Below, piece by piece: positions 9,273 to 26,461 of a DNA stretch of 27,142 bases (position 1 is the stretch's first letter; every line of letters begins with the position of its first letter). The position numbers and the translations under genes were made by a program. The stretch is taken from the IMG/VR virus record IMGVR_UViG_3300011010_000142, positions 1 through 27,142 of that record; one strand, 5' to 3'. The DNA is from a virus. The notes under the pieces were generated by a model, which saw only the letters and a program-made list of their open reading frames with translations, did no database searches and was not told the origin of the DNA.

Positions 9273-9755
9273 TCACGTTTTTTTGCTAGCCAATATCTGT
9301 TTGAGTAACTCATTTCTGTCAACTAAACTACCCTCTCCTAATGGAGTGTTTTCAATTTCTTCAGTTTTGCCTGCAATCTTTTGATCTAATCCAGCTTTTT
9401 TAAGCTGTAAATCTAGCATTTTTAACTTTTTATTAATCTTAGCTGTCTTAGCTGTAATGGCATGACCTAGCATACTACTTGCACTATTGAATATTTCACT
9501 AGCAAAACGACTATCAACTTGCATACCCAAATCCATCAAGTCTTTGTAGCTGTCAGTGGCTAATTGTGCTAAAGTGTCCATCTCAGTATCACTTGCTTCT
9601 AAGCCACGAACCTGAGGTAATGCATTTTCAATCTTTGTTAGTGTGTCGTATGCTTCTTGGGTGACAATATCCACTTCTACCTTTTCAAGCATATGTTCGT
9701 TTGCATCTGTATCGTCGGCTGGGAGTTCAAATAACTCAGACAATTTTTTAGTCAT
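9273..9755 (-). CDS. gp16: Terminase small subunit, T4 gp16-like
   Basis: The 160-aa product has an acidic N-terminus and a central helical hairpin, YKDLMDLGMQVDSRFASEIFNSASSMLGHAITAKTAKINKKLKMLDLQLKKAGL (about 70-123). This resembles the central coiled-coil region of T4 gp16 (helix with the DSRFASEIFNSASSMLGHAITAKT pattern followed by a Lys-rich helix). Length is close to T4 gp16 (164 aa). In T4, gp16 forms a ring that recognises DNA and stimulates the gp17 packaging motor. The large subunit is not in this window. The gene lies just downstream of the gp4-like gene, with a late-type box overlapping the gp4 stop. The assignment rests on remembered family patterns, so it is good but not certain. 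Confidence 0.75.
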   Translation of the reverse strand: MTKKLSELFELPADDTDANEHMLEKVEVDIVTQEAYDTLTKIENALPQVRGLEASDTEMDTLAQLATDSYKDLMDLGMQVDSRFASEIFNSASSMLGHAITAKTAKINKKLKMLDLQLKKAGLDQKIAGKTEEIENTPLGEGSLVDRNELLKQILASKKT

Positions 9756-9784
9756 ACTATAATCCTATTATAGTAGTATTTATT
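9755..9784 (-). promoter_or_regulatory. Late promoter box and start-site hairpin, small terminase gene
   Basis: AATAAATA on the minus strand at 9784-9777 overlaps the stop codon of gp4 and lies 21 nt before the start. A perfect 9-bp dyad (9755-9763 with 9767-9775) has a 3-nt loop AGG, so the ribosome site is the loop and the A of the ATG is in the stem. Confidence 0.68.
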
Positions 9785-10220: not shown

Positions 10221-10582
10221 TATGTAACTATATTTCGTTGTACGGTTTCATTAGGTGCTGGCACCACACTAACTCCGTATAGTGTCGTTTTACTTTTTAA
10301 ACTGTTTAAATAGTATGCCATTAGTGCTGTAGTTTCAAGTTTAGTATTTCCTTGAATGTTAGCTAATAGAGTCATTGCATCTTGACCGGTAATGCTGACA
10401 ATTCTAAACAGCATTGTTGTAAAGTTGTTTGCTGTGTTAGTAGTAGCACAAACTGATTTAAAATACGAATTAACGATATCATATATATCCGCACTAATAG
10501 AATCTTCGTAGTTGTAAAAACTATCAAAAACTCTTACCGTGTTGTCTAATTGTGTTTGGGGTCCGTCGATTATTCGTGCCAT
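10220..10582 (-). CDS. Small probable virion protein (120 aa), conserved in T4-like aquatic phages
   Basis: I chose the ATG at 10582 over a longer frame starting at 10642, because it gives MARIIDGPQTQLDNTVRVFDSFYNYED, has an AGAGG site just upstream and does not overlap the upstream gene. The middle (YDIVNSYFKSVCATTNTANNFTTMLFRIVSITGQDAMTLL) looks helical. The end, LNSLKSKTTLYGVSVVPAPNETVQRNIV, resembles a C-terminal motif I remember in small proteins of T4-like cyanophages. There are no membrane or signal segments. It sits between the tube-like protein and gp4 and is coupled to gp4 by a one-base stop/start overlap. A head-tail joining or tail role is inferred from position only. Confidence 0.75.
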   Translation of the reverse strand: MARIIDGPQTQLDNTVRVFDSFYNYEDSISADIYDIVNSYFKSVCATTNTANNFTTMLFRIVSITGQDAMTLLANIQGNTKLETTALMAYYLNSLKSKTTLYGVSVVPAPNETVQRNIVT

Positions 10583-10606
10583 ATAAATACCTCTACTGTA
10601 TTTATT
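10583..10606 (-). promoter_or_regulatory. Late promoter box that forms the 5' arm of a start-site hairpin
   Basis: AATAAATA on the minus strand at 10606-10599 overlaps the stop of the upstream gene. A perfect 8-bp dyad (10583-10590 with 10598-10605) spans the box itself and the bases just before the ATG at 10582. The AGAGG ribosome site is at the loop/stem edge. Confidence 0.68.
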
Positions 10607-16548: not shown

Positions 16549-17148
16549 TTTTTCAACTTGATTGTGCAAGTCATCAATTGTCTTATTGTTGTCTAACCAA
16601 TGATCGTATTCTAACCCAACGCTAGAATACTCACTAGCATGTATGTTAAACTTGTCCAGTGCATCCTTGTTCTCTGTACCAGCATTAAATGCTTTAGCTA
16701 TATCATACCATTCGGGACGAGGGCCACGCTCAACTCTAACTGTTGTCCCACCTACATCCTTAATTGCAAGTACTTCATTGGCAAAACGACAATCAGTAAT
16801 TACTATATCATCCTTTGCTTGTCTTAACTTGTTTTGAATGCTTGCCACCCAGATATCATTGTGAAAGCCATTGCGACATACTTCTGTGCCCCAGTATTGC
16901 AATACCCACCTAGGAGTAAGATGTGGAATACTCAATCGTTCTGCCCACCAAGTATCTACATTTTCTCGCCACTCTCGGCTAGACTTTGTAGTACCTTCTA
17001 ACATTTCTCTATCCCAACCAAATACATTTGCTACAGCATCTTTTAATGACCCAGCAAAACTTAACTTCTTAAACCCGTGGAATGTAGTGAGATAATTAGC
17101 GACAGTATCTTTGCCGCTACCAATGAAACCTGTTACACCTATAATCAT
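16534..17148 (-). CDS. Deoxynucleoside monophosphate kinase, T4 gene 1-like
   Basis: I chose ATG at 17148 because it gives MIIGVTGFIGSGKDT with an AGGAG site at the right distance; the longer frame to 17169 adds seven residues that overlap this site. The 204-aa product has the P-loop G7FIGSGKDT15, then WAERL..PHLTPRWVLQYWGTEVCR (about 72-95), VITDCRFANE (about 117-126) with the base and phosphate binding residues, and a lid-like VERGPRPEW. This is the dNMP kinase family of T4 gp1 (241 aa), which makes dGDP, dTDP and hydroxymethyl-dCDP from monophosphates for phage DNA synthesis. A sigma70-type promoter lies inside an upstream hairpin, suggesting early expression apart from the late gp13 gene upstream. 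Confidence 0.92.
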   Translation of the reverse strand: MIIGVTGFIGSGKDTVANYLTTFHGFKKLSFAGSLKDAVANVFGWDREMLEGTTKSSREWRENVDTWWAERLSIPHLTPRWVLQYWGTEVCRNGFHNDIWVASIQNKLRQAKDDIVITDCRFANEVLAIKDVGGTTVRVERGPRPEWYDIAKAFNAGTENKDALDKFNIHASEYSSVGLEYDHWLDNNKTIDDLHNQVEKLINF

Positions 17149-17156
17149 AAAGAAAA

Positions 17157-17187
17157 ACTCCTGTAGCACATAGTATACTACAGGAGT
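17157..17187 (-). terminator. Hairpin that is both terminator-like and ribosome-site-hiding
   Basis: Perfect 10-bp arms (17157-17166 and 17178-17187) with an 11-nt loop are followed on the minus strand by TTTTTCTTT and then the dNMP kinase ATG. The 3' arm contains the AGGAG ribosome site. It can stop gp13 read-through, or hide the site when read from upstream. Confidence 0.75.
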
Positions 17188-17209: not shown

Positions 17210-17980
17210 TTAACCTTGTACCCATGTTAGGGGTTGACTGTAATCCACATAGCGTTTTAAATCTTCTATTAAAGTTTCTTGCATTTTGGCACTTTCAGCT
17301 TTCAATGCCGCACCATTTAATGTAGTTCCACCGCCCGGTCCTACAATCGATCCAAATTTCTCACGTGCTTCACCTAGCGTAGCTTTCAGTACACTTAATG
17401 TCCAATCACCAATCCATACACCTGAACCCGGATCTTGTAATAGTGTTGACTCAGGTTTTTGAATATCAGCCCAAATTAATATCTGTTCTCCATCACCCTT
17501 GATGTTACGAACTAGTTTGATTTCTTTAGTTACGTTGTTGAAAGTGTATATGACATATCCACCAAACATACGTGCGGCTAATTCAATATACCCGGCATAC
17601 ATGTCATACATTGCTAAACCACCTGCGTAGTTGTAATTCAATAGATACGTGTTAAGAATAGCACTGGAGAAAGGATCAAATGAACTTGCGGCGGGCCCTG
17701 TTTCTAGGCCAACTGTTCTGCGAAATACTTGACGAACGTTAATAAATTCTCTAGGAAGTGTGTAGTCGGTTTGATGGGCATGTAGTGTCATCAATGTGTA
17801 GGCTTCTTCTGTTGCATTTTGCGCTCTTTGGCGATAAACTTGAACAGCATATTTGTATGCGGCTTCGTAATGCTCAGGATCTAATTCTACATCGACAATG
17901 CCTTCACCCATACGTAGGCGAAGATTTTTAAATAATTCTTCTTTTAATTGGTCTAATGTTGCTGATTGTTGAATTGCCAT
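17210..17980 (-). CDS. gp13: Neck protein gp13-like
   Basis: The 256-aa product begins with a helical region LDQLKEELFKNLRLRMGEGIVDVELDPEHYEAAYKYAVQVYRQRAQNATEE, where the pattern LG..I..VEL...H...A...A...Y matches gp13 of T4 and marine relatives. The middle has DYTLPREFINVRQVFRRTVG, and the end WTLSVLKATLGEAREKFG, TTLNGAALKAESAKMQETLIEDLKRYVDYSQPLTWVQG is the family's C-terminal block. T4 gp13 (309 aa) with gp14 forms the neck ring that closes the filled head and binds the tail. It is separated here from the gp14-like gene by a set of non-structural genes on this strand. A late box inside a GC-rich hairpin lies directly before the ATG. Confidence 0.8.
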   Translation of the reverse strand: MAIQQSATLDQLKEELFKNLRLRMGEGIVDVELDPEHYEAAYKYAVQVYRQRAQNATEEAYTLMTLHAHQTDYTLPREFINVRQVFRRTVGLETGPAASSFDPFSSAILNTYLLNYNYAGGLAMYDMYAGYIELAARMFGGYVIYTFNNVTKEIKLVRNIKGDGEQILIWADIQKPESTLLQDPGSGVWIGDWTLSVLKATLGEAREKFGSIVGPGGGTTLNGAALKAESAKMQETLIEDLKRYVDYSQPLTWVQG

Positions 17981-17986
17981 GGTGTT

Positions 17987-18011
17987 CCCCAGATACTGTA
18001 TTTATCTGGGG
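17987..18011 (-). promoter_or_regulatory. Late promoter box inside a GC-rich start-site hairpin, gp13
   Basis: A perfect 9-bp dyad (ccccagata 17987-17995, tatctgggg 18003-18011) with a 7-nt loop contains the minus-strand GATAAATA at 18006-17999 in its 5' arm and loop. The GGGG ribosome site is in the 3' arm. Transcripts from the box would begin near 17993 and leave GGGG unpaired. Confidence 0.75.
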
Positions 18012-18022
18012 AAACGGTTCAA

Positions 18023-18454
18023 TCAAATATCGCCGTCTTTGCGATGCTCTGAGTAATGTGCATCAAACGAACCACCGGGATAACGTGACTCTAACTTGCG
18101 TACATTTTCATCAATCACATCATTTGGATCAAGATTCAAAGCTCGACATGCATTAATCCAATACCACATTACATCACCTAGTTCACGTTTCATGTGAAAG
18201 AGTTCATCTTTTGTCAAAGGTTTACCTTGAAAAATGATCTTTTTGGGCACTTCGATAAACTCACCGGCTTCTGCGGCAAGTCCTAGACATGCGGTAATCA
18301 ATAGTGGCACGTTGATATCAGGACCATGTGTTCCATCTTCAAGCATGTTACCATCAAGACGATCTAATCGATTGATAAAATCAGTCAGGTTATTACTGGG
18401 CCGGCTTGTAACCGCTTCTACAAAATCTTTATATTTGTTCAAGTCAATATTCAT
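18023..18454 (-). CDS. mazG: MazG-like nucleotide pyrophosphohydrolase
   Basis: The 143-aa product has LGLAAEAGEFIEVPKKIIFQGK (about 57-78) and KRELGDVMWYWINACRALNLDPNDVIDENVRKLESRYP (about 89-126). The two EExxE/ExxD-type metal sites (E in AAEAGE and E/D in ELGDV) and the DVI..N..KL..RYPGG tail define the MazG/all-alpha NTP pyrophosphatase family. MazG-like enzymes hydrolyse nucleoside triphosphates; in aquatic phages they have been linked to nucleotide recycling or (p)ppGpp-related control, with the true substrate unsettled. Length is normal for single-domain phage MazG. The start overlaps the upstream stop as ATGA with an AAGGA site, showing coupling to the 60-aa gene. Confidence 0.92.
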   Translation of the reverse strand: MNIDLNKYKDFVEAVTSRPSNNLTDFINRLDRLDGNMLEDGTHGPDINVPLLITACLGLAAEAGEFIEVPKKIIFQGKPLTKDELFHMKRELGDVMWYWINACRALNLDPNDVIDENVRKLESRYPGGSFDAHYSEHRKDGDI

Positions 18455-18633
18455 ACATAATCCTTATACATTAGTTTACTACCTTCTTCCCCTAGTGTTT
18501 CTCTAAAAATCTCATTAGTTCGTTGCATCATTGCACAAGCTAGCATAAGCCTATCATTATCATTATCAGTTAACAATAATGATTTATCTATCAAGACCAT
18601 TAATTCGCTCATTCTAATTTCTATGTCACTCAT
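18451..18633 (-). CDS. Small unknown protein (60 aa) coupled to mazG
   Basis: I do not recognise this. It reads MSDIEIRMSELMVLIDKSLLLTDNDNDRLMLACAMMQRTNEIFRETLGEEG and looks like a small two-helix protein, without membrane segments or Cys motifs. It starts one base after the stop of the 394-aa gene and ends in an ATGA overlap with mazG. This tight packing, with no base wasted on either side, supports it as real and as part of the same operon. No function can be offered. Confidence 0.7.
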   Translation of the reverse strand: MSDIEIRMSELMVLIDKSLLLTDNDNDRLMLACAMMQRTNEIFRETLGEEGSKLMYKDYV

Positions 18634-18634
18634 A

Positions 18635-19819
18635 TTACCACGCTTTCAAAATAATCATGTGTTCGTTAAAACGTCCATTTGGTGTTGTTGCAACAGCTTT
18701 AATATCATTAAAGAATTTACGTGCTGCCGGCTTACTACCAGTAACTCCTGCAAGTTGTTCACATGGCTTACGTAAAGTTTTAATTTCACTCTTATTTGTA
18801 TCAAAGCCAAGTAGTGTACTACCCTTTACCGTAAAGGTCTTGCTATAATCGTCAGCAATGTAGTGATGCAGTTTGCGTTTTGCAGTATCATAAACCCAGG
18901 CTTCGCTTGAACCATGCAATTTTGTAGGATGAATACTAATCAAGTCTAGTTTGCTAGCAGTATCCTTAAATGTTCTCAAGTACTTTAGTTTTGCTACAAT
19001 CTTCTCTACCGGAACAGCTTTGCGGGCACGTGGTGCTTTAGCGGCTTTCTTAACACTGATATAACTGTTTAGGTCAGTAAGTGACTGTTCAATGAATTTA
19101 AGAATATTACGAATCTGAATTTTTGACAAGTGTGAATAGCCTTGAATAATTTGACTATCGTTACCTTCTTGCACTAGTTCAAACTCAGCTTGTTTACGTT
19201 TCCAAACATCTACTATCAAACTAATATGTTGTGGCATCACATTACGTTTAGCAACCTCATCCATTGGCTTAAGTTTACTATTTGGCTTTGTTCCACCTAG
19301 AATGAATTCATCAAACAATCCTTCAAGTTCACCAGCCGCCTCTTTTGCTTTATCTTTGAGAATATCCTGAATGTTAGGACGTGCGGCAATAACTTCTTCT
19401 TTACTTCCGCCGGTAGCACTTTCTTTTGTTTCCGGCACTTCAAGACACTTCACTATCCTAGCAATTTCGTTTTGCAAGGTTGCGTTTTCTTTTTCATTGA
19501 GTTCAAGTCCACGCATTGTCATACGTGCCAACCAACATAGCGTAGACAAAAATTCGCTTTCATGTACCTTGCGTAGCTTTTTGGCTTCATCGGTTCTGTT
19601 ATTGTAATCCAAGTACTGGCACAAAAGTTCTTTAGCATCTTTTTTGCCGTAGAAACGATGATACCAAGTAAATGACCTAGCCAATGTTGAGAACCTGCGA
19701 TCTGAATCGGGTTGCAATGGAAAGAAAGGCTCTTCACCCATATGCTTTGTATCAGCATCACGTGGGTTCAGTGCTTTGACAAAATTGTCTTCAGTTTGTT
19801 TGGGTTTTTTAATAGCCAT
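18635..19819 (-). CDS. Unknown 394-aa protein, likely early gene
   Basis: I do not recognise a family. The N-terminal 130 residues include FSTLARSFTWYHRFYGKKDAKELLCQYLDYNNRTDEAKKLRKV and look mostly helical. Residues about 130-240 are charged. A basic stretch KKAAKAPRARKAVPVEKIVAKLKYLRTFKDTASKLDLISI (about 259-298) suggests nucleic-acid contact. The C-terminal part, LHGSSEAWVYDTAKRKLHHYIADDYSKTFTVKGSTLLGFDTNKSEIKTLRKP, looks like a beta domain. A sigma70-type promoter with an extended -10 lies upstream and an AAGGA site precedes the ATG. It heads an operon with the 60-aa gene and mazG, which supports an early or middle role in taking over host metabolism, by inference only. Confidence 0.8.
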   Translation of the reverse strand: MAIKKPKQTEDNFVKALNPRDADTKHMGEEPFFPLQPDSDRRFSTLARSFTWYHRFYGKKDAKELLCQYLDYNNRTDEAKKLRKVHESEFLSTLCWLARMTMRGLELNEKENATLQNEIARIVKCLEVPETKESATGGSKEEVIAARPNIQDILKDKAKEAAGELEGLFDEFILGGTKPNSKLKPMDEVAKRNVMPQHISLIVDVWKRKQAEFELVQEGNDSQIIQGYSHLSKIQIRNILKFIEQSLTDLNSYISVKKAAKAPRARKAVPVEKIVAKLKYLRTFKDTASKLDLISIHPTKLHGSSEAWVYDTAKRKLHHYIADDYSKTFTVKGSTLLGFDTNKSEIKTLRKPCEQLAGVTGSKPAARKFFNDIKAVATTPNGRFNEHMIILKAW

Positions 19820-19881: not shown

Positions 19882-20220
19882 TTAGACTTTGGGCACTCGC
19901 AAAATTCGATAAGTAATGCCCTGTGCAGTCTTACACTTTTCAAATCCCTCAGTTGCATAGCAAAGTTCAAGCATTGCAAGTTCCCTACGATCCCGCACAT
20001 TGGGCTTGTTTACTTTGATACTAATGAATTTCTTGCGGAACTCAATGTATATTTTCTCAGCACTATACACTAATTCGAGGCCCAACTTGACTTGTTCAGC
20101 ACGTAGCTTTTGCTTGTCAGTAAAAAGAGAACTATTTACTGCACTACGCAAACGTGCATCACGTTCAGCGAACCAAGCAAACTTGCCAGCAGACTTATAT
20201 TCACGTTCTAATTCGATCAT
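19882..20220 (-). CDS. Small basic unknown protein (112 aa), strong early promoter
   Basis: I chose ATG at 20220 because a GAAAGGTG ribosome site sits just before it; the longer frame to 20259 would reach into the promoter. The product MIELEREYKSAGKFAWFAERDARLRSAVNSSLFTDKQKLRAEQVKLGLELVYSAEKIYIEFRKKFISIKVNKP is rich in Lys, Arg and Glu and looks helical in its first half, with a short strand-like end YRILRVPKV. There are no Cys motifs or membrane segments. I recognise no family. Its promoter is a perfect sigma70 consensus, so it is likely among the first and most strongly made phage proteins. Such small basic early proteins often act on host machinery, but that is inference. Confidence 0.7.
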   Translation of the reverse strand: MIELEREYKSAGKFAWFAERDARLRSAVNSSLFTDKQKLRAEQVKLGLELVYSAEKIYIEFRKKFISIKVNKPNVRDRRELAMLELCYATEGFEKCKTAQGITYRILRVPKV

Positions 20221-20250: not shown

Positions 20251-20279
20251 ATTATACACCCGAAACCATTTAATGTCAA
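20251..20279 (-). promoter_or_regulatory. Perfect consensus sigma70 promoter
   Basis: Minus strand TTGACA (20279-20274), a 17-bp spacer and TATAAT (20256-20251). Both hexamers and the spacing match the consensus exactly. It drives the 112-aa gene, with a leader of roughly 25 nt that carries the ribosome site. Confidence 0.88.
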
Positions 20280-20291: not shown

Positions 20292-20299
20292 GATAAATA
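20292..20299 (+). promoter_or_regulatory. Late promoter box of the gp14-gp15 operon
   Basis: GATAAATA ends 8 nt before the ATG of the gp14-like gene. With T4-like start spacing the leader would be only about 3 nt, so translation may be leaderless or the start spacing differs. Confidence 0.6.
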
Positions 20300-20307
20300 A
20301 GAGTACT

Positions 20308-21966
20308 ATGCCAAGACTAAGCCTCTATCGTTCCGAAAAATCCAATGATTATAAGTTTTTTGATAAAATTATCAAAGAACAATTTACTGTTGGTGGTACT
20401 GATTTATATATTCATAAATATTCGGGAATCAAAGACCAAGGTCCGAGTATTGATTTAACACAGCCACAACATAATAGTGCAGATCCTACAAAGATTCAGG
20501 ATTTGTTATTTTTAGAAAATAGAGACCGTAAATACGAACCTAATATATATAGATTACGCGGTCATTATAATATACAAAACGTAGATTTTGATTTATCACA
20601 ATTTGGCTTATTTTTAAATAATGACGTTATCTTTATTACTGTTCATTATAATGAAATGATTGATTTAATCGGTCGTAAATTAATGGTCGGTGATGTAATT
20701 GAATTACCCCATCTAACTGATTATCATCCATTAAATGAGATAATCCCAGCGGCTTTACGTAGATATTATCAGGTAACGGACGGAGACGTTGCTAGTGAAG
20801 GATTCAGTAATACTTGGTACTCTCATTTATGGCGTATCAAATGTGAGCCATTAGTTGATAGTCAAGAGTTTAGTAATATTCTTGACCAACCCACGAACAA
20901 AGATAATTACTTGGGTGATTGGAGTACGGCAACTGTATACCCCGCTGGATATACTGTTAGTTTTGGTGATAAAAATTATCTTACTAAAATAGATACTCCT
21001 GTAGGTATACCATGTACTAATACAACTTATTGGCAACTTGATACGGCTGATAATTTAAAAGATATACTCGGTAGATACAATACCAACATTGCAATTAATA
21101 ATGCCGCAAATGCAGAAGCGGCTAGACAATTACCTTCATCTGGTTACGACCGTACTCAATTGTATATTGCACCACTAGATGAACAATCTATTCCTCTTCC
21201 ACCAGTAAGTATTGTTTATCTAAAGGGAACTCCTAAACTACCTACTGGTAACTTAGCAGAAATAACATCACCCGGTTACAAACATGCCGCACCAGTAATT
21301 AGAATTAGTGCTGCCGCATTGCAAAGTATTTGGGACATGACCGCTGATATGGATCAATCTAAACTAACTGAATTTATTCAGATGAGTTTGAAAGTCGCAG
21401 AGATTAAACCTGATAGAACTGACACTGGTTCTGGTGCTGTAAGTGGACAACTTGTATTAACTGCAAAAGCCTTAGGTGCTGTTGATGGACCATATGGTAC
21501 AGGTGATAATACGTACAGTGATGCTACTCAAGATCCAACTAGTCCAAATTTCACAGGAACGATTATCCCCAACATAATGAACTATCGTGCGGATACTGAT
21601 CCTAGATATAATTTTGTTGCCAAGTCTAGTCCTCGTGGCTTTGGTTATACGAATGGTTACTTAGTGGGTACAGCAGAAGCACCAAATGGATTGCCTACTG
21701 GTAGTGGTATCACTTTCCCGTCAAATCCTAAAGTAGGAGATTACTTCTTACGCACAGATTACTTACCGCAACAATTATTCCGTTGGGATAGTAGCCTATG
21801 GATAAAGATTAGTGATAATGTAAGAACCGGGACTGCATTGGGAGCCAATGATAAGTCTCAAAGAGCTTCATTCATTAACAATAGTAATGTAACCGTATTG
21901 ACTAACGGAACGACTATCCCTGAGAAACAATCACTATCACAGATATTTAAAATCCAAGTGGATTAA
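20308..21966 (+). CDS. gp14: Neck protein, gp14-like, with inserted carbohydrate-binding-like module
   Basis: The N-terminal 190 residues resemble the T4/cyanophage gp14 pattern in order: YIHKYSG, IQDLLFLENRDRKYEPNIYRLRGHYN, FDLSQFGLFLNNDVIFITVHYNEM, then LMVGDVIELPHL and a YYQVTD...LWRIKCEPLVDSQEF block. T4 gp14 has 256 aa, while this has 552. Residues about 201-244 (YLGDWSTATVYPAGYTVSFG, then YLTKIDTPVGIP...YWQL) look like a chitin-binding CBM5/12 fold. Near 476-506, VGDYFLRTDYLPQQLFRWDSSLWIKISDNVRT is a module I remember from aquatic phage neck proteins. gp14 joins the head to the tail with gp13. It is directly followed by gp15, as in T4. The gp14 call rests on pattern memory and on position beside gp15. 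Confidence 0.62.
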   Translation: MPRLSLYRSEKSNDYKFFDKIIKEQFTVGGTDLYIHKYSGIKDQGPSIDLTQPQHNSADPTKIQDLLFLENRDRKYEPNIYRLRGHYNIQNVDFDLSQFGLFLNNDVIFITVHYNEMIDLIGRKLMVGDVIELPHLTDYHPLNEIIPAALRRYYQVTDGDVASEGFSNTWYSHLWRIKCEPLVDSQEFSNILDQPTNKDNYLGDWSTATVYPAGYTVSFGDKNYLTKIDTPVGIPCTNTTYWQLDTADNLKDILGRYNTNIAINNAANAEAARQLPSSGYDRTQLYIAPLDEQSIPLPPVSIVYLKGTPKLPTGNLAEITSPGYKHAAPVIRISAAALQSIWDMTADMDQSKLTEFIQMSLKVAEIKPDRTDTGSGAVSGQLVLTAKALGAVDGPYGTGDNTYSDATQDPTSPNFTGTIIPNIMNYRADTDPRYNFVAKSSPRGFGYTNGYLVGTAEAPNGLPTGSGITFPSNPKVGDYFLRTDYLPQQLFRWDSSLWIKISDNVRTGTALGANDKSQRASFINNSNVTVLTNGTTIPEKQSLSQIFKIQVD

Positions 21967-23801: not shown

Positions 23802-24506
23802 TTAAGCGTTAGGAATAGTTACATATCCTGATGGAGCAGGACTTACAAATGTCCATGGCACAGATGCACCTGTAGCAAATGCAGTACCGTTGCCCTGTGT
23901 CACTGTAACTTTGTGAGCACTGATCTTAGTAACAAAATATGTGCCATTAGTAGTGTCTGTAGCAGTGATAGTCATTTCCCCTTGTGCTGATACTGCACTA
24001 TCTTTTAATTTGCAAATAGCTGTACCGTCCGCTGTTCTAACTTTGAAACGGCGAGCACCAACTTGACGAATGATATCTGCCCGCTGACTTGTCCCACCTG
24101 TTGTAGTTTTTGCAAAAAGTGTGATAGCATTTTCTTGATTGGTTGAAGAACCTACTGCACCACTGTCTGTTGTTAGAACTGCGGTAAATGTTAATGTACC
24201 TTGCACACCGCCAACGCTTTCCGTAACAGCAGGAGCTGATGTATAACCAGAACCTTTTTGAGTAACTTCAATCGCTGTAATGCTGTTGCTTGCACCAAGT
24301 GCAGAAACTCTAGCAGTAGCTTGTACACCACCTGGTAAATTAGGAGCACCAATATTGATTGGATCGTTAAGAGCGTAACCTGTACTATTGTTTACACCAC
24401 CAAGTGTAATACTAGCTACACCTTGCCCACCGATATTATCATCGCCGGCTCCTGTAGTACCGATGTTACGGTTACCGAAATATTTTTGATTTAAACTGCG
24501 TGCCAT
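23802..24506 (-). CDS. Virion structural protein with GSGY beta modules
   Basis: The 234-aa product begins MARSLNQKYFGNRNIGTTGAGDDNIGGQGV. It has a module VASITLGGVNNSTGYALNDPINI, ARVSALGASNSITAIEVTQKGSGYTSAPAVTES (about 30-97), a beta motif common in tail-associated proteins. A second half (about 125-234) includes RADIIRQVGARRFKVRTADGTAICKLKD and TDTTNGTYFVTKISAHKVTVTQG. No membrane segment is present. Similar start residues occur in structural proteins of aquatic T4-like phages, as far as I recall. It lies after the 370-aa structural gene behind a 73-nt leader with a late box, and ends at a terminator. A decoration or tail surface role is inferred. Confidence 0.8.
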   Translation of the reverse strand: MARSLNQKYFGNRNIGTTGAGDDNIGGQGVASITLGGVNNSTGYALNDPINIGAPNLPGGVQATARVSALGASNSITAIEVTQKGSGYTSAPAVTESVGGVQGTLTFTAVLTTDSGAVGSSTNQENAITLFAKTTTGGTSQRADIIRQVGARRFKVRTADGTAICKLKDSAVSAQGEMTITATDTTNGTYFVTKISAHKVTVTQGNGTAFATGASVPWTFVSPAPSGYVTIPNA

Positions 24507-24587: not shown

Positions 24588-25700
24588 TTAGAACGTAGAT
24601 AATGCAACACGTTTCCATACGTTCGTAGAGGTACAAACATAGATGTAGTCAGCGTCCCAACAAATTTGTCCTGGGGTACCAGTACTAGTACTAGTTTGTG
24701 TAGTAATAGCTGACTTAAATAATGTACCAACTTCAATTGCACCGGTAGTAACTAGTACCCCTACATTTAGTGTATTAGTAGTTGAATTATAAGTAAAATC
24801 ACTTTCAGATGAAACTACATTGCCTGTTGTAGAAGTATACAAAACTGCGTTAGCTGAAGTTGAAAGTAATGTTAAATTAGAACCAGTGATGCCATCAAAT
24901 TCTACGTTAGCTGTGTTTGCTACGCTTTGACCAATACTTATTTGACCATTGGCTGCGTAAGTAATACCTGTACCTGCACTAAAATGTGCTCTAACTTCCG
25001 TAGCATTGGGTCCATTATATGTAATTACACCATTAGCGTAGGATAAGTTGCCATCTCCACCACTGTCAGTAACGCTTATAGTAGACTTCACTGTAGTTGC
25101 AAAATTAGAATCAGCAAATACGTTGGACCAACTAGTATTGGTTCCATCATTGGTTAAAAATTTACCAGTTGTGCCAGTTGATATTGATGCTACGCTACCA
25201 CCGGCAGCTATAGTAGTCCAACTTAAATTATTTGATCCATCAGTAGTTAATACTTGACCGCCTGACCCACCGGTGATTATTAAATTACCAACACCACCTA
25301 ATTTAAGTTTGTTGGTTGGGTAGTCTCCGCCATTGCCTAAACGATTGCCAGTCCAATTGACAAGCGTGTAGGCTGCAACACCGTTACCATCTCCTACAAT
25401 AAGCTGACCAGTACGAATGTTTTGTATGTTGAATACGGTGTTTCCTGCTCCAGCTAGGGGTGCAAATATTTTTGTATTCGAAGGACCGTCTGGAACTCTG
25501 CTATTGATTAAAGATACTTCAGACAGTATTTCAGTTTGAGTAGTGAAGCTACCCTCAGGAATTTGAACTTTTACAGGATCATTACCAATATAAACTTGTC
25601 GAGTATCAGTTGAGAAACCGATCTCACCAATATCAAGTTGTGGCAAATCTGTGTTTTCGCCAGTTCTATGTTGGATTTTAGAAATTTGTACAATTGCCAT
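24588..25700 (-). CDS. Tail fibre-like structural protein (370 aa)
   Basis: The N-terminus ISKIQHRTGENTDLPQLDIGEIGFSTDTRQVYIGND (about 6-41) matches the tail-attachment module found at the start of many phage fibre and tropism proteins. The middle is a repetitive Ser/Thr/Gly/Asn-rich beta region with SGGQVLTTDGSNNLSWT and TGKFLTNDGTNTSWSN as related units. The C-terminal 30 residues, GTPGQICWDADYIYVCTSTNVWKRVALSTF, form a small cap known from fibre proteins. No enzyme motif is seen. It lies next to the 234-aa structural gene and just after an exonuclease gene, from which it is separated by a late box and a hairpin. Fibre or neck-whisker function is inferred. Confidence 0.82.
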   Translation of the reverse strand: MAIVQISKIQHRTGENTDLPQLDIGEIGFSTDTRQVYIGNDPVKVQIPEGSFTTQTEILSEVSLINSRVPDGPSNTKIFAPLAGAGNTVFNIQNIRTGQLIVGDGNGVAAYTLVNWTGNRLGNGGDYPTNKLKLGGVGNLIITGGSGGQVLTTDGSNNLSWTTIAAGGSVASISTGTTGKFLTNDGTNTSWSNVFADSNFATTVKSTISVTDSGGDGNLSYANGVITYNGPNATEVRAHFSAGTGITYAANGQISIGQSVANTANVEFDGITGSNLTLLSTSANAVLYTSTTGNVVSSESDFTYNSTTNTLNVGVLVTTGAIEVGTLFKSAITTQTSTSTGTPGQICWDADYIYVCTSTNVWKRVALSTF

Positions 25701-25732
25701 AGTATAATCTTTATGTGATTATACTATTTATC
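25701..25732 (-). promoter_or_regulatory. Late promoter box and perfect start-site hairpin
   Basis: GATAAATA at 25732-25725 on the minus strand is followed by a perfect 9-bp dyad (25701-25709 with 25717-25725, 7-nt loop) that ends against the ATG. A transcript starting near 25719 would lose most of the 5' arm. Confidence 0.7.
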
Positions 25733-26424: not shown

Positions 26425-26461
26425 TATAGTCAATTATAGTTGATTATAGTACCGTTGTCAA
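26423..26461 (-). promoter_or_regulatory. Consensus sigma70 promoter with three TATAAT boxes in 10-bp steps
   Basis: Minus strand TTGACA (26461-26456), 17-bp spacer, TATAAT (26438-26433). Two further TATAAT boxes lie at 26448-26443 and 26428-26423. The middle box has ideal spacing and would start the RNA within a few bases of the exonuclease ATG. Confidence 0.82.

Follow-up and report, generated by a model that had tools for sequence, protein, structure and literature searches.

A covarying hairpin over a late promoter and the ribosome site of the neck gene in jumbo T4-like phages: a predicted timing switch

Results

The window analyzed here, the whole 27,142-nt stretch of an uncultured virus record (IMGVR_UViG_3300011010_000142), belongs to a giant (jumbo) T4-like phage lineage. 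One of its minus-strand genes encodes a 256-aa head-tail adaptor Ad2/neck protein (phrog_211) with tblastn matches to annotated neck proteins of jumbo T4-like phages, and since one relative is annotated as "neck (T4-gp13-like)," the name gp13 given to the gene in an earlier sequence-only reading is reasonable. A perfect sigma70 promoter (20279-20251) reads four ORFs, with mazG last, toward the neck gene (Table 1). The sole terminator-like site between this promoter and the hairpin described below is a weak one at 18045-18029 (5 pairs, followed by ATTTGATTGA), and a terminator scan of the same interval returned none that was convincing; the promoter and the scan are both compatible with the read-through from the mazG operon that had been put forward as a prediction. 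Among the 39 relatives with enough upstream sequence, a promoter matching 11 or 12 of the 12 sigma70 positions lies on the same strand in 34 and on the other strand in 2.

Table 1. Coordinates of the features discussed in the text (positions in the window unless a locus is named)
Feature	Position	Strand	Details	Basis
Mirror module, dNMP kinase leader	17157..17187	-	ACTCCTGTAG TATACTATGTG CTACAGGAGT; AGGAG in 3' arm; kinase ATG at 17148	
Neck/head-tail adaptor gene, 256 aa	17210..17980	-	Predicted regulated gene	phrog_211, E = 4.5e-25; tblastn to annotated neck proteins
Hairpin 3' arm	17985..17995	-	TATCTGGGGAA; carries Shine-Dalgarno GGGG, 17990-17987	Fold
T4-type late promoter box	17999..18005	-	ATAAATA; predicted +1 at 17993	Box-to-start distances, T4 spacing
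Hairpin 5' arm	18003..18013	-	TTCCCCAGATA; first 3 nt of late box inside	Fold and covariation
MazG-like pyrophosphatase gene	18023..18454	-	Last gene of operon; stop codon shortly ahead of late box	phrog_229, E = 4.4e-45
60-aa ORF, mazG operon	18451..18633	-		ORF list
394-aa gene, mazG operon	18635..19819	-	Function unknown	phrog_11903
First ORF of mazG operon	19882..20220	-		ORF list
Sigma70 promoter, predicted early	20251..20279	-	TTGACA-17-TATAAT; reads toward neck gene	12/12 match
Second same-design module, 370-aa gene	25700..25731	-	Late box 25731-25725; arms 25726-25717 and 25709-25700	
Second perfect sigma70 promoter	26433..26461	-	Feeds exonuclease gene reading into 25700 module	
Weaker late-box hairpin, 120-aa ORF	10582..10605	-	ATAAATAC / GTATTTAT; start codon adjoins 3' arm	
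Weaker late-box hairpin, 160-aa gene	9755..9783	-		Leaders of relatives
Conserved ~400-nt noncoding block	L071:3538-3925, L064:3530-3925, L037:3535-3925, L042:3530-3925, L009:960-1365, L002:262-700			

Ahead of the neck gene, the minus strand carries a perfect dyad of 11 bp around a 7-nt loop, AATACAG (18013-17985). The sequence-only reading had recognized this dyad as perfect but had made it 9 bp long; its placement of the late box in the 5' arm and loop and of the GGGG ribosome site in the 3' arm was correct. The box ATAAATA is split, with ATA in the 5' arm and AATA in the loop, and stands 18 nt ahead of the neck-gene ATG, a fitting distance for a T4-type late box, while the GGGG precedes the same ATG by 6 nt. 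Late boxes of T4 occupy -13 to -6 (PMC1524935), a spacing by which the late transcript would start at 17993, within the 3' arm and past the 5' arm, in agreement with the start that had been proposed near this position.

Folding of the long and short RNAs, suggested earlier as a check, bore out the expected difference. The long RNA (from 18022) folds at -20.6 kcal/mol with the GGGG paired (z = -4.8; 0 of 200 dinucleotide shuffles fold equally well), whereas the late RNA (from 17993) reaches only -2.8 kcal/mol, the same as its shuffles, and is predicted to leave the ribosome site free. The calculated cost of opening the ribosome site is 21.0 kcal/mol on the long RNA and 3.6 kcal/mol on the late RNA. 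As a score for comparing leaders we used this extra cost of freeing the ribosome site on the long RNA over the late RNA, which amounts to 17.5 kcal/mol in the window; T4 gene e, taken as a positive control, gives 14.6 kcal/mol by the same measure.

Among the 25 longest perfect inverted repeats listed for the 27-kb window, the neck dyad is one of only two of at least 11 bp. The late box is not enriched by itself (13 copies of ATAAATA in the window against 12.5 expected), and it is strongly enriched 16 to 26 nt ahead of start codons in six related genomes. Rfam covariance models run against 17900-18100 gave no match up to E = 1, and neither did a near-identity search of phage records with the region give any match.

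A set of 80 neck-gene relatives, together with the window, yielded 61 distinct leaders, and in nearly all of them the late box lies within a hairpin that has the ribosome site in its 3' arm. The score reaches 6 kcal/mol or more in 55 of the 61 and 8 kcal/mol or more in 47. The arms vary among relatives in matched pairs (CTCCAG/CTGGAG, CTCCTG/CAGGAG, CTCCCG/CGGGAG, and GTTTACCTG/CAGGTAAAC). An alignment of 30 leaders with equal spacing has 92 percent of its stem cells paired and contains 51 double-change cells, compared to 20.7 in shuffled alignments and no more than 22 in slid pairings; when changes were placed on the protein tree, 22 double compensatory changes fell in the stem versus 1 to 6 in slid pairings. 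This covariation argues that the neck hairpin is under selection, and a pairing kept by compensating mutations in dozens of relatives points to a conserved timing switch rather than a chance palindrome. Four leaders (L068, L074, L075, and L079) have lost the original stem and carry an alternative one that starts just past the box and covers the ATG, with no U-tract; these hairpins would retain the same logic but not the same sequence.

A perfect palindrome that overlaps a late promoter could in principle be a DNA element, either a two-fold symmetric operator or a cruciform bound by a regulator. The wobble steps do not separate RNA from DNA, since G-U steps outnumber A-C steps by 16 to 5 in raw counts but by only 9 to 7 as tree events. 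What is conserved, however, is the complementarity of the arms and not their sequences, and the loop is of variable length among relatives. The dyad shifts relative to the box, but its end invariably falls on the ribosome site or the ATG, and hairpin enrichment is seen at the ribosome site alone. Arms that change in position and sequence while invariably reaching the ribosome site favor an RNA structure, and we regard a DNA element as hardly credible.

Equivalent hairpins are present in the known phages GAP32, 121Q, and XaC1, and a form of the hairpin is present in Paride; in all four the neighboring gene is on the same strand. The first three share with the window a homologous gene in the syntenic order neck, dNMP kinase, sheath, and a TAAATA-type box in the 5' arm with the Shine-Dalgarno sequence in the 3' arm. 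Late promoters of the ATAAATA type have been reported in CBB and GAP32 in the CBB paper, and the passages of it consulted do not describe the neck-leader hairpins of GAP32, 121Q, or XaC1 (PMC5259590); our literature search likewise returned no description of the neck hairpin in jumbo phages. The annotated start of the 121Q neck gene lies upstream of the likely start.

In XaC1 (L081), 121Q (L083), and GAP32 (L086), a run of six to eight T stands between the hairpin and the ATG and gives it a terminator-like look there, so that one element may serve both as a terminator and as a mask of the ribosome site. This raises the question of whether the window hairpin is mainly a terminator of the upstream operon, with the burial of the ribosome site incidental. 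Unlike these phages, neither the window (AACACC) nor its IMG/VR relatives (AACACC, AACACA) have a U-tract after the stem, the alternative hairpins of L068 to L079 cover the start codon without one, and the terminator scan of the window did not list the neck hairpin. We therefore rejected an intrinsic terminator in the window for want of a U-tract, although it may apply to the GAP32-type relatives, and consider it unlikely that termination is the main role of the hairpin.

The hairpin accompanies an abutting upstream gene on the same strand. It is present at 49 of 50 loci with such a gene versus 4 of 9 without (P = 1.4e-4), although the orthologues are related and these loci are not independent samples. 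The abutting gene is MazG in 35 of the 61 leaders and other genes elsewhere. No ribosome-site hairpin of such strength was found in Atu_ph07, Vibrio 2.275.O, or Phosso, which have an opposite-strand neighbor. L005 has a strong hairpin despite an opposite-strand gene ahead.

Similar hairpins recur at other late genes. We scored 158 late leaders from six related environmental phage records and the window, delimited with a simple, crude gene caller, and found 24 above 8 kcal/mol versus 3.2 expected (the largest of 60 controls had 8) and 15 above 10 kcal/mol versus 1.0 expected. The control swapped everything ahead of the predicted +1 among leaders; swapping the pre-box flank alone leaves intact those hairpins that have their 5' arm after the box and is therefore too weak a control. 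Coding-region windows show no excess, which suggests that protection acts on the ribosome site only. A score of at least 6 kcal/mol is reached by 12 of 21 leaders fed by a predicted early promoter, 19 of 80 fed by late promoters, and 2 of 30 behind an opposite-strand gene. With the neck orthologues left out, 7 of 16 early-fed leaders compare with 1 of 29 divergent ones (P = 0.0016), and the difference between early-fed and late-fed leaders has a P value of 0.09 at 6 kcal/mol and 0.007 at 8 kcal/mol. When co-directional and divergent leaders were compared by rank, no significant difference emerged (P = 0.12; 0.15 on z-scores), and the two groups differ only in the fraction with strong hairpins. 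The hairpin is absent from all 40 leaders of the tail-tube family, whose gene is preceded by a late gene and, in many cases, by a terminator-like stem.

The hairpins at 19 of 80 late-fed genes indicate that early read-through does not account for every case, and weaker ones of similar kind are exemplified by a 160-aa family located behind head closure, in which 20 of 49 distinct leaders score 6 kcal/mol or more and 40 of 49 score 4 or more. Such cases would suit a general tuner of translation or a stabilizer, for instance a 5' stabilizer or an RNase shield on processed RNA, instead of a timer. A 5' stabilizer, however, could not form on the late RNA, which has no 5' arm, and the hairpin is associated with early-fed genes and same-strand neighbors; we find this explanation very improbable for the neck gene. 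The other strong case in the window is the module at 25700, where the ATG is at the end of the 3' arm and an exonuclease gene (phrog_298) lies upstream.

A different arrangement was seen in genomes G001 to G006 (L088 to L160), where 45 genes have the late box followed by exactly 5 nt and the ATG, with 29 more at 4 nt. A Shine-Dalgarno-like motif is found in 1 of the 45 five-nt genes versus 98 of 158 ordinary late leaders. T4 spacing sets the +1 of the five-nt genes on the A of the ATG, so that they look like leaderless late mRNAs; several of them are conserved between genomes. In the window, the late box of the 552-aa virion gene at 20308(+) is 8 nt ahead of the ATG (20293-20308) with no clear Shine-Dalgarno sequence, and the gene in G002 that seems to be its orthologue shows the leaderless spacing of 5 nt.

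Two further RNA elements were noted. Between the upstream gene and the neck gene, some relatives hold a conserved noncoding block of ~400 nt, with a closing stem and with 18 covarying pairs in 6 sequences. It gave no Rfam match up to E = 1 (L071 searched) and no tRNA or tmRNA, and is a candidate for a new large structured RNA; the neck hairpin has decayed in three of the six loci with this block. The window also has a freshwater-2 RNA (RF02980, 50.5 bits) at 24586-24504 on the minus strand, in the leader of a 234-aa ORF (23802-24506), and this copy starts at an ATAAATA late box, which places the motif in a phage late leader. The idea that the freshwater-2 family starts with a late box was dropped, as the first consensus helix is not the box.

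The dNMP kinase leader, downstream of the neck gene, contains what looks like the same device reversed, in which an early or middle gene would be shielded from late read-through. A -10-like TATACT (17177-17172) lies inside its hairpin, and in the kinase leaders of relatives the arms vary together, as judged by eye, with TATAAT, TATACT, or TACAAT kept inside. Of the kinase leaders with a -10-like hexamer, 38 of 48 exceed 6 kcal/mol. Upstream of the -10 we also observed a conserved GGTTAACCTAAA and TTTACTTTT (window 17230-17148, minus strand; kinase leaders L001 to L079). The latter resembles the T4 MotA box, a likeness that suggests a middle promoter, and we infer an early or middle class for the kinase promoter. 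PeSL cassettes, mobile cassettes of an early promoter and a stem-loop in T4-type phages, likewise join a promoter to a stem-loop; their description as mobile early-promoter cassettes sets them apart from the kinase module.

Discussion

In T4 genes e, soc, and 49 and I-TevI, the late promoter is part of the 5' strand of a helix in the RNA, and this helix makes the ribosome site inaccessible (PMC3014915, PMC2988022); for gene e the structure was reported to cut lysozyme synthesis 100-fold (PMC3014915). The likeness to e and soc that the sequence-only reading had pointed out thus has a precedent in the literature. The window shares with the e-type genes a late box in the 5' strand, a Shine-Dalgarno sequence or AUG in the 3' strand, a late RNA without the 5' strand, and a position downstream of an early operon, the last being predicted in the window. 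It differs from e in that the gene encodes a virion neck protein of a distant jumbo lineage and that the hairpin is kept, with covariation, in 55 of 61 distinct leaders. Whereas repression is experimental in T4, we infer repression at the neck gene, along with its transcript ends, timing, and read-through, from sequence. The leaders of segB in T4 and mobE in Aeh1 also fold, on long transcripts, into a stable hairpin that covers the ribosome site, with the late promoter in or beside it (PMC2988022), but these genes encode mobile, non-essential homing endonucleases, in contrast to a structural gene in a conserved cluster.

Since the testable sequence-level features of the T4 switch are found here, the neck leader probably works like it, and we consider a switch of the e/soc type, which would prevent translation of the neck gene from early read-through RNA, very likely to be the best explanation. 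RNA started at the sigma70 promoter would cross mazG into the neck gene bearing both arms and would fold so that the Shine-Dalgarno sequence is buried and no early neck protein is made. RNA started from the late box at about 17993 would lack the 5' arm and loop, could not fold in this way, and would be translated.

Tentatively, and with slightly more doubt than belief, we propose that in these jumbo T4-like phages genes at class boundaries may be translatable only from the RNA of their own promoter. Late genes would achieve this through a box within a hairpin or a leaderless start at the late +1, and the kinase in reverse, through a covarying hairpin around its -10 that would silence late read-through. 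If true, the mirror version would be new, and so would leaderless late mRNAs that serve to insulate timing classes.

In T4, a few genes are known to have hidden ribosome sites. In the lineage studied here, selection seems to maintain the same design at a structural gene throughout a large environmental clade, and the design seems to recur at several genes per genome; the switch mechanism is known, while the gene, the lineage, the breadth of conservation, and the mirror module appear to be new. For cultured relatives the prediction is that early RNA of the neck gene would be present and the neck protein absent until late in infection. The design also offers a way in which the boundaries of timing classes in uncultured phage genomes may be read from sequence alone.
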